DNA of 64,000 nucleotides, taken from Pseudomonadota bacterium. GTDB taxonomy: Bacteria; Bdellovibrionota; UBA1018; CAIMNF01. This document shows, piece by piece, positions 49,524 through 52,566 of the stretch. The first letter of the stretch is position 1, and each line of letters opens with the position of its first letter. Under the pieces are notes generated by a model. That model saw nothing but the letters and a program-made list of their open reading frames with translations, ran no database searches and had not been told where the DNA came from. A program made the position numbers and the translations under genes. The DNA is taken from positions 1 to 64,000 of the forward strand of contig JAIXOQ010000004.1 in NCBI GenBank assembly GCA_027486675.1. The letters run 5' to 3'.

Positions 49524-50351
49524 TCAGCGCTTTACAGAGAGAGTTCTCCGCCGCAGCTCACGCGCGATGGCTGGAGGGGACTCGGTAAACATCGCGTCAT
49601 CGCTCAGAATGGGCACCCCGATCTGAACCCGTATCACACTTGGAGGATTTAAGAGCTCGCGTGCAAGCAGCGGCAGACGCAAAGGAGGGAACAAATATCC
49701 CATGCGCAAAAAAAGCTTGCCTGCCTGCCCGTGAAAGTAGATTGGGATGACCGTTGAGCGCGTATTTTTTGCGAGGATGCCTACGTGGTGAGTCCAGGGA
49801 CGTTCTTCGGCAAGAGATGAGCTCCATCCTGGAAGTTCCGCCACTTGACCCGCTGGAAAGATCCCGAGTGCACCTCCTGAAATAAGATGATCCATCGCAC
49901 TGCGAAGGACACTCACGTTTGAGTGGCTGTGACGGCTTCTCTCCATAACATTCACCGGTAAGAGAACGGATTTCAGTTCAGGCAGAATCTGCAAGGAGGA
50001 ATTCCCAAAGAACTTAAATTCAGAACGAATCTTTTGCAGCATCGAAATGAGTACCAAAGCATCTACACCACCAAAGGGGTGATTCGCGACCAAAAGCAAA
50101 GGACCTGGGAGCAACCGTAGCCGTTCTATGTCATCCAAAGCCAACTCCACTTTTACCCCTAAAGTGCTGAGCACCCTCTCAAAGAACTCTCCGGCCTGAG
50201 CCCCAGCATTTAGGTTTCTACGGGAAGCATCATAGACCGCTTCTAGCTGTTTCAATCTCAGGACCCATCGCACGAAGGGTGAAAGAAAACGAGGAAGGCC
50301 AAAATCAAATGCGCTCACACTCGGGCTGCCCTTCCTTCTTTTCAACCGCAT
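49524..50351 (-). CDS. PlsC-like acyltransferase (hemolysin/OlsA-type)
   Basis: The protein has 275 residues. It has the acyltransferase motifs NHPFGGVDALVL (HX4D; H and D catalytic) and GIFPAGQVAELPG (substrate binding), preceded by helices at the N-terminus. It should move an acyl chain from acyl-ACP or CoA to a lysolipid or amino-lipid at the inner membrane. It is divergent from the SDR-P450 gene with 46 bases between, so the two probably share control and perhaps a lipid product. Confidence 0.85.
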   Translation of the reverse strand: MRLKRRKGSPSVSAFDFGLPRFLSPFVRWVLRLKQLEAVYDASRRNLNAGAQAGEFFERVLSTLGVKVELALDDIERLRLLPGPLLLVANHPFGGVDALVLISMLQKIRSEFKFFGNSSLQILPELKSVLLPVNVMERSRHSHSNVSVLRSAMDHLISGGALGIFPAGQVAELPGWSSSLAEERPWTHHVGILAKNTRSTVIPIYFHGQAGKLFLRMGYLFPPLRLPLLARELLNPPSVIRVQIGVPILSDDAMFTESPPAIARELRRRTLSVKR

Positions 50352-50397
50352 TCAGTGCACCCTCGACTTCCGAGCCACCCAATGCCTACGCTGAGGA

Positions 50398-52566
50398 ATG
50401 ATGATCCAGGGCGCTCGAATCTTCGTGACCGGCGGAAATGGATTCATCGGTTCAAGAGTAGTCGCGGAACTCATTTCAAGAGGCTACCGTGTTCGATGCC
50501 TGCTTCGGAAGCAGAGTGACTTCAGTCGCATAAGCCACCTGCCCTATGAACCTCATACGGGCGACATCTTAGATGTAGAAACTCTTATTTCTGGAATAAA
50601 GGATTGCGACGGGGTGATCCATTTAGCAGGGATATCGTCCTGGGAGGAGATCAGGAAAGCCCGGGCCCATCTCCACACCGTGATCGTTCAAGGAACCAAA
50701 AACGTGCTGGACGCTAGCATTCGTAACGGAAGACCTAGGCTTGTTTTTGTCTCTTCCAGTGCAACCATCAATGCGAGCGAAACTCCGAAATTATTCAATG
50801 AGAAGACCCGCTTTAGTCCAAAAAGGCCGCATCTTCACTATTCACAAGCCAAACGCGATGCTGAACGTCTGATCAGACGCTATCGGATCGACGGAATGGC
50901 GGATGCAATCATCGTTAACCCTTGCGAGGTGTATGGTCCAAAAGACATTGATGGAATAACCGCATCTAATCTGATGGGCTTCCTTCAATATCTGCCAGCC
51001 GTCGTGTGTCGGGGCGGAACGTCAGTTGCACACGTGGAGGACGTAGCCCGTGGGATTGTCATTGCTTTAGAAAAGGGTCGCCTGGGTGAACGGTACATCT
51101 TAGGCGGAGAAAATCTTACTCTAGAGCAAATCGCCCGTACCGTGCGGAAGGTTGCAGGGTTAAGTGATCGTGTCGTACGTGTCCCAAGCTCCTTGCTGAA
51201 GGCCGCATTGAGAGATGTCATCGAATATGCATCGCTCTATTGGTTTATGGATTCATCTAAAGCTATACAGGAACTGGGCTATCAATTTCGTTCATCTTCC
51301 GAAGTATTCGCTGAAGTCATTCCTGAACTCATGCAGAAGCAGAAACGCCCTTTCAACCTATCCTTGAGGTATGGTGGCGGTGGTTTTGATGCTCGGACTT
51401 TCCTGTTAAAGATCGCTGGACGCATCCAAAAACGAGACGTCGTGGTGCTGAACTCTGACCCCGTACTCTGCAGCAGAGTTCTCAGTGCTTCAAATAAAAA
51501 GGGAGACTTCATAGAGAGCCTCATTGCGACTCCCGCTTGGCACCCTATTTATTCTGTGGAATCCACCGACGGTGAAACATGGGAAAAACTTTCAGAAGGA
51601 TTCAGAAAAACGATGACCTCCTTAAACTGGAGGGAACGACTGCCACCAATCACCTTGCGGCATTGCGATGCCGTTGCCCTGACCATGAAAGATCAGCCAG
51701 AAAAGATCATCGATGCAGAACGGATCTCACGTCTGGTTCTGCATGTGCTGTACGAACTCGTCTTCGAAGAGCCGATTAGTATTAATGATGAGAATCTTTT
51801 TTACCGGGCATCGCTTGAATGGAGAAAAGAGATTGCTGTTAAGGGCACTGCCCAAAGCGGGGTTAAGGACGCATTCATGAGTCGTCTTAAACAAATTGCA
51901 AGCGTCTCCCGATTCAAAGACGATGCTGTAACCTATGGATCTGATCCCAATCTTTGGCTCTCGATCTTCGCCCAGCCTTTTCTGATCTCCCCCCAAATCA
52001 ATGTTTCAGACATCTTTTGCTCCGTCTTCCACTTCTTAAGAAAGGAACCTGAGCTGTACGCAAAGGTTCAAGGATGGGCAAGGAGTGGCGATAGAAGGCG
52101 TCTAGAAGGAGTGGTCCTCGAGGCGATTCGCTTAAAACACCCCTTTCCCATTCTTGAGCGTGAACTGACCGAAGACTTAAACACCTCCGAGACCGTTTAC
52201 AAGAAGGGAACGCAGTTCTTCATTCTTTTAGATCAGTTTCGGCAAGACCCCAACTTTGATCCCGACCGTTGGCTTCAGATGAGTTATGAAAATCCCTATT
52301 CATCTATTCCATTTGGAGTAGGGCCACGTATGTGTATCGGGAAGCCGATTGCGATGGAACTCCTCACGGAACTCTTAAGCCAGTTCTTGACGCGTTTCCA
52401 AGAGGAGGTCATACGACCAGAGATCGGACATCTTTACAGTGGAAGAGATAATGATCGAAATGGGTCAATGAGTGAAGGCATATACCAGCTCAAAGTGTTC
52501 TCCAAAGTTCTTTGGAAGAGCTTCGGTATTGGGAGAAAAAAAATGTCGCTTCGGGATGAGTCTTAA
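50398..52566 (+). CDS. Natural fusion: short-chain dehydrogenase + cytochrome P450
   Basis: The single frame of 722 residues joins two enzymes. Residues 1-320 are an extended SDR of the dihydroflavonol-reductase/epimerase type: nucleotide loop TGGNGFIGSR (G12-G18), and catalytic Y148 with K152 in HYSQAK. Residues about 340-710 are a P450-like domain: ExxR at E575-R578 (EAIRL) and the haem loop PFGVGPRMCIGKP with Cys646 as thiolate ligand. The expected I-helix Gly-x-x-Thr is not seen; the aligned region reads ISPQINVSDIFC, as in non-classical P450s such as peroxygenases. No reductase domain is fused. The frame is intact. Confidence 0.85.
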   Translation: MMIQGARIFVTGGNGFIGSRVVAELISRGYRVRCLLRKQSDFSRISHLPYEPHTGDILDVETLISGIKDCDGVIHLAGISSWEEIRKARAHLHTVIVQGTKNVLDASIRNGRPRLVFVSSSATINASETPKLFNEKTRFSPKRPHLHYSQAKRDAERLIRRYRIDGMADAIIVNPCEVYGPKDIDGITASNLMGFLQYLPAVVCRGGTSVAHVEDVARGIVIALEKGRLGERYILGGENLTLEQIARTVRKVAGLSDRVVRVPSSLLKAALRDVIEYASLYWFMDSSKAIQELGYQFRSSSEVFAEVIPELMQKQKRPFNLSLRYGGGGFDARTFLLKIAGRIQKRDVVVLNSDPVLCSRVLSASNKKGDFIESLIATPAWHPIYSVESTDGETWEKLSEGFRKTMTSLNWRERLPPITLRHCDAVALTMKDQPEKIIDAERISRLVLHVLYELVFEEPISINDENLFYRASLEWRKEIAVKGTAQSGVKDAFMSRLKQIASVSRFKDDAVTYGSDPNLWLSIFAQPFLISPQINVSDIFCSVFHFLRKEPELYAKVQGWARSGDRRRLEGVVLEAIRLKHPFPILERELTEDLNTSETVYKKGTQFFILLDQFRQDPNFDPDRWLQMSYENPYSSIPFGVGPRMCIGKPIAMELLTELLSQFLTRFQEEVIRPEIGHLYSGRDNDRNGSMSEGIYQLKVFSKVLWKSFGIGRKKMSLRDES

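Follow-up and report, generated by a model that had tools for sequence, protein, structure and literature searches.

What lies at the locus?

The window, by which we mean the whole 64,000-nucleotide stretch of DNA analysed here, carries on its forward strand an open frame that runs from an ATG at 50398 to a stop at 52566 and comprises 722 codons with no internal stop. A sequence-only reading had proposed that this one intact frame joins a short-chain dehydrogenase (SDR) to a cytochrome P450, and this is borne out both by Pfam, which finds the two domains in the 722-aa product (Epimerase at residues 8-236, 3e-37; 3Beta_HSD, 1e-21; p450 at residues 569-671, 1e-22), and by an orthologue of like architecture in a related genome, G030. 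The N-terminal half of the P450 scores weakly and lies in the same frame as the C-terminal half. The protein is laid out as an extended SDR (residues 1 to about 316; 50398..51345, +), a weakly predicted linker (about residues 317-321; 51346..51360, +) and a P450 (about residues 322-722; 51361..52563, +). The motif SIRYGGG, with which a stand-alone P450 in another related genome (G028) begins, matches residues 322-328 of the fusion and therefore sets the domain border near residue 320; AF2 confidence is low across this stretch (pLDDT < 50 at 317-333). At the other end of the gene, GAGGA stands immediately 5' of the annotated ATG (window 50390-50403) and, because it touches that first ATG, the true start may be the second, at 50401.

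Just upstream, separated by a gap of 46 nt and transcribed divergently, is a PlsC-like gene (49524..50351, -), exactly as had been noted from the sequence. Its product is a predicted O-acyltransferase, whose closest relatives are GlsA and the N-terminal domain of OlsF; we will return to it below.

Could the fusion simply be an artefact? The source genome is a draft in 33 contigs, and this is the one point in favour of a frame-joining assembly error or a gene in decay. Against it, G030 encodes a 744-aa chain with the same order of domains and conserved motifs, 52% identical over its full length, with both frames open, and the GC and GC3 of the window gene resemble those of its neighbours. Since such a chain recurs at this level of identity, we reject an assembly artefact, and the artefact-or-decay reading as a whole has a negligible probability; the fusion is real, and not a product of chance.

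How widespread is the fusion?

Our search for relatives returned three close P450s, all of them in the order to which the window organism belongs. The first is the G030 chain, from another family of that order. The second, from a third genus (G028), is a stand-alone P450 of 433 aa (L032:13084-14385) with an identical I-helix motif; tblastn finds no SDR near its gene, and its genome holds no match to the SDR of the fusion at E<=1e-15. By eye, this gene sits beside Fic-like and deaminase-like genes. The third copy, in G053, is interrupted by the end of its contig. In a profile search of the phylum, a P450 of this family was present in 4 of 369 genomes, two of the four being shown to be fused, while the next-ranked matches were ordinary P450s with E-values of about 1e-15. 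The domain order had been described as uncommon, and the search for the same architecture across genomes supports this, with G030 as its second instance; all of our statements about rarity cover the phylum searched. A scan of a large genome collection used whole-protein patterns, none of which fell in the best-conserved P450 motif; such a scan has little sensitivity for this P450, and it recovered relatives of the SDR only. Viral contigs held no relative of the fusion, and plasmids and phages held only distant SDRs or P450s, with none spanning both domains.

The nearest unfused relative of the SDR half, 46-48% identical to it, is a stand-alone protein encoded in another phylum (L028:10007-11008, MAG 3_bin.68), immediately downstream of a Ser/Thr kinase gene. 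In 195 genomes of that phylum no P450 of this family was found at the threshold used, in a search that ran without a positive control.

The tree makes the history rather more intriguing. The four family P450s form one clade (100/100), whose branch measures 2.76 changes per column, and within it the two fused chains pair with each other (98/99), contrary to the grouping of the species: G030, G028 and G053 share one family, and the fused pair cuts across it. Either a single fusion event was followed by transfer of a cassette of the PlsC-like gene and the fusion, or the pattern reflects ancient duplication and loss, and it is the conflict between the fused clade and the species grouping that suggests transfer. 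This patchy distribution, with a gene tree at odds with the species, is also what might be expected of an enzyme of specialised metabolism, in which P450 and SDR would act as monooxygenase and reductase on a small molecule rather than a membrane lipid (a terpenoid, for example, or an acyl-derived signal), with the PlsC-like enzyme supplying an acylated precursor or product. The relatives of the SDR, which include ketone and CoA-ester reductases, would fit. However, the flanking genes scanned with Pfam encode no terpene synthase, PKS or NRPS domain, and the fusion is the sole P450 of its genome, so that we consider this reading unlikely.

What kind of dehydrogenase is it?

The N-terminal half is an extended SDR with all of its signature residues in place, namely TGxxGxxG (T11-G18, with GxxGxxG at 12-18), Ser119-121 and YxxxK (Tyr148-x3-Lys152). 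Residue numbers given earlier for both domains (G12/G15/G18, Y148, K152, E575-R578 and C646) are all right. The Arg37 that follows strand 2 presumably indicates NADP(H), as we would assume from SDRs in general. Gox2253 (PDB 3WJ7) is the nearest solved relative whether sequence (3e-36) or fold (E 7e-22, TMt 0.79) is compared, and cinnamoyl-CoA and kavalactone reductases also rank among the top fold matches. Among family models the best for the SDRs of the window protein, G030 and L028 is HpnA (TIGR03466), at 187-236 bits; the window protein scores 187 bits, well short of the curated cut-off of 368.

These HpnA-like matches could point to a sugar-nucleotide or triterpenoid substrate, which would weigh against the lipid-modifying role that we favour below, but no squalene/hopene or oxidosqualene cyclase (SQHop_cyclase_C) was found in the window genome, G030, G028 or G053. 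Because the HpnA score falls below its cut-off and a cyclase is absent, we reject a hopanoid or sterol pathway.

What is unusual about the P450?

Its fold, like that of the SDR half, is confirmed by AF2 and Foldseek. Modelled alone, the P450 part reaches a pLDDT of 77 and a pTM of 0.80, and all 50 PDB matches listed by Foldseek are P450s (best E 3e-10, probability 1.0, TM about 0.58), among them CYP3A, CYP97, CYP90B1 and a Thermus P450; the idea that this region might turn out not to be P450-folded was thus tested and failed. The nearest solved structure is CYP24A1 by sequence and CYP3A by fold. The whole-protein model is weaker (pLDDT 71, pTM 0.56), and at that pTM the relative placement of the two domains is unreliable.

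The hallmarks of the superfamily are all here: the haem-binding loop FGVGPRMCIG (residues 639-648, with Cys646; 52312..52341, +), which is an ordinary FxxGxRxCxG; the K-helix ExxR, as EAIR (575-578; 52120..52131, +); and a PERF-like FDPDRW (620-625; 52255..52272, +). The departures lie elsewhere. In the C-helix the usual W-x3-R becomes W395-x3-S399 (51580..51594, +), and the span from there to the I-helix is shorter by 15-35 residues than in the comparison P450s; from ExxR to FxPxR there are 45 residues in place of 52-53, the seven fewer falling in the K'-meander. At the C-terminus is an extension (52426..52563, +) made up of GHLYSGRDND, of which GH-YSGR-ND is invariant in the four sequences and specific to the family, and a basic, weakly amphipathic helix modelled at 691-717. 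AF2 gives this helix partly low confidence and its helical moment is 0.35-0.66; as modelled, it would suit a membrane-bound substrate.

A further departure is in the I-helix core, S531-P-Q-I-N535 (51988..52002, +), where Ile534 and Asn535 occupy the acid and Thr positions of the (A/G)Gx(D/E)T motif that typifies classical monooxygenases. We aligned the four family members with a further 15 P450s from the phylum: the pair is Ile-Asn in all four, Asp/Glu plus Thr/Ser in 15 of 15 comparison P450s, and the Gly of (A/G)G is replaced by Pro in every family member. The longer motif AQPx-x-ISPQIN-x-x-DI is invariant across the four. The missing Gly-x-x-Thr reported from the sequence is therefore genuine, and fixed in the family. 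By the usual rule of CYP nomenclature, families are bounded at 40% identity and, because identity to the other P450s compared is under 20% over the domain, the four-member group would constitute a new CYP family.

What, then, might such an I-helix do? The sequence-only reading took the missing Gly-x-x-Thr as a hint of peroxygenase or rearrangement chemistry, and this we find unsupported as it was put. A CYP152-like peroxygenase would use H2O2 rather than O2 and a redox partner, leaving the SDR to process the hydroxylated product, and there is something to be said for this: the acid-alcohol pair is replaced, CYP152 enzymes carry a Pro in the I-helix and here Pro stands at the second I-helix Gly position, the meander is shortened and no redox partner is encoded nearby. 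CYP152 peroxygenases have themselves lost the acid–alcohol pair, although CYP152L1 has an Arg, Arg245, in the distal I-helix near the haem (PMC10988616). In the fusion there is no Arg between Trp520 and Arg548, and by counting it is Ser531 that occupies the Arg place. The haem loop is of the ordinary kind, CYP152 does not group with the family by sequence and ranks far below many monooxygenases, and redox genes do exist elsewhere in the genome. We reject membership of CYP152 because the I-helix Arg is absent, and we think peroxygenase chemistry improbable.

A rearrangement would make the P450 an isomerase or lyase whose substrate is the hydroperoxide or endoperoxide of a lipid, in the manner of prostacyclin synthase or CYP74, with the SDR acting on the carbonyl product. 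Both of those enzymes have an Asn in the I-helix, which in prostacyclin synthase stands at the Thr position, and the missing acid residue, together with the lack of redox genes nearby, fits the idea. CYP74, however, has a non-canonical haem loop where the loop here is canonical, Pfam reveals no hydroperoxide source among the neighbours scanned, and the hydroxylases of the CYP7 clan, which are true monooxygenases, also have Asn at the Thr position; on balance we rate this reading as quite improbable. Asn535 stands where the CYP7/CYP8 clan has its Asn, yet no CYP7/8 structure appears among the sequence or fold matches listed, and PDB sequence, profile and I-helix-only searches speak neither for nor against kinship with that clan.

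Where would the electrons come from?

There is no Fer2 or FNR-type gene on the window contig, in agreement with the earlier remark that neither ferredoxin nor reductase lies in the neighbourhood. In a bacterium this absence says little, because an Isc-type ferredoxin, which is the best Fer2 protein of the genome and is encoded beside NifS-like and IscA-like genes, and a single FNR-type reductase, on another contig, are available elsewhere. Docking of an ordinary ferredoxin could be altered, given that the C-helix lacks its Arg and the proximal meander is short.

With a pyridine-nucleotide domain fused to the P450 and no redox gene close by, it is tempting to ask whether the protein is self-sufficient, the SDR feeding electrons to the haem or the P450 taking them directly from NAD(P)H as P450nor does. 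Self-sufficient P450s carry a fused flavin or Fe-S domain, however, and this chain holds SDR and P450 domains only; SDRs transfer hydride and have neither flavin nor an iron-sulphur centre, and the G028 P450 manages without an SDR altogether. We regard self-sufficiency as highly improbable.

What might the locus do?

Here the PlsC-like neighbour becomes important. Its top family models are OlsF (8e-32; 111 bits against a cut-off of 620) and GlsA (2e-19; 70 bits against 260), both of them below the cut-off, and the OlsF (ornithine-lipid) and GlsA (glycine-lipid) enzymes esterify a 3-hydroxy group. The gene is matched in only 3 of 58 relatives: the window genome, G030 and, more weakly, G017. In G030 it again stands divergent to the fusion, with a gap of 82 nt and 39% identity over 170 aa. 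The G030 gene is split between L031:1-582 and the end of L061, which we read as one gene because the two contigs share an exact 141-nt overlap. The G017 match (contig C42, L059) is a frame of 664 aa that includes an OlsF-like acyltransferase region; it shares 31% identity with the PlsC-like protein of the window. Neither G028 nor G053, both of which have the P450, yields a match to this PlsC-like protein.

Beyond the PlsC-like gene, the genes of the window genome and of G030 differ, so that only the pair itself is conserved. Adjacency in two genomes is by itself no more than suggestive; but each of the two genes is very rare in the order, and they recur side by side and divergent in two genera that belong to different families, amid otherwise unrelated surroundings, which makes the functional link likely, as had been surmised. 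The G028 P450, which has neither this SDR nor a PlsC-like partner, indicates that P450, SDR and PlsC are nonetheless separable. Elsewhere in the window genome (contig C14, L062:375-2043) are adjoining OlsB-like and OlsA-like genes, distinct from the PlsC-like gene; a separate ornithine-lipid pathway is probable and, because this pair is present, ornithine-type or aminolipid chemistry is plausible in this organism.

We tentatively favour a bifunctional, lipid-modifying oxidoreductase that would yield a hydroxyl for the divergently encoded enzyme to acylate, while recognising that the odds are still somewhat against it. In such a scheme, the P450 would oxygenate a hydrophobic substrate, probably a fatty-acyl chain or lipid, the NADPH-type SDR would interconvert alcohol and carbonyl at the group made by the P450 or at a neighbouring one, and the lysolipid-type O-acyltransferase would then esterify the hydroxyl. 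Electrons would reach the P450 in trans, from the housekeeping Isc-type ferredoxin and the single FNR-type reductase, and the invariant Pro-Gln-Ile-Asn may handle proton delivery in place of the acid-Thr pair, with Asn535 perhaps standing in for Thr. More doubtfully, the protein may be the founding member of a new SDR-P450 family, marked by its ISPQIN I-helix, that takes a lipid through oxidation and reduction in two non-standard steps and, with a dedicated O-acyltransferase, makes a lipid class that has not been described. The linkage to PlsC directs attention to a specific, testable lipid product.

How does it compare with known systems?

Our literature search, of limited coverage, turned up no account of a chain that joins an SDR to a P450. 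We conclude that the fusion is a real enzyme type, very rare in the phylum searched and probably lipid-modifying. Each of its parts has familiar cousins. The SDR resembles HpnA, the 'hopanoid-associated sugar epimerase', but scores below the cut-off and is fused to a P450, and Gox2253, to which it is about 29% identical, is a stand-alone enzyme. The PlsC-like neighbour resembles the OlsF and GlsA lysolipid O-acyltransferases but is without the OlsB-like half of OlsF. With the P450 superfamily (PF00067) the second domain shares fold, ExxR, PERF-like and Cys haem motifs, while differing in its Ile-Asn pair, its lost C-helix Arg, its shorter K'-meander and its own C-terminal extension. Like the CYP152 fatty-acid peroxygenases, it has lost the acid–alcohol pair, but those enzymes differ in the I-helix Arg, the haem loop and their sequence grouping; fixation of this loss in an otherwise canonical P450 offers a natural test of proton delivery without Thr.

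Natural P450 fusions with a second catalytic or redox domain include CYP102A1, CYP5619 and CYP6001 (PMC5919972). Such fusions have revealed which partner reactions are coupled in nature, and have become biotechnological tools. The self-sufficient CYP102 and CYP116B enzymes and the dioxygenase-P450 chains of CYP5619 and CYP6001 are likewise natural fusions, but in this one the partner is an SDR, which brings no redox cofactors and no peroxidase haem.
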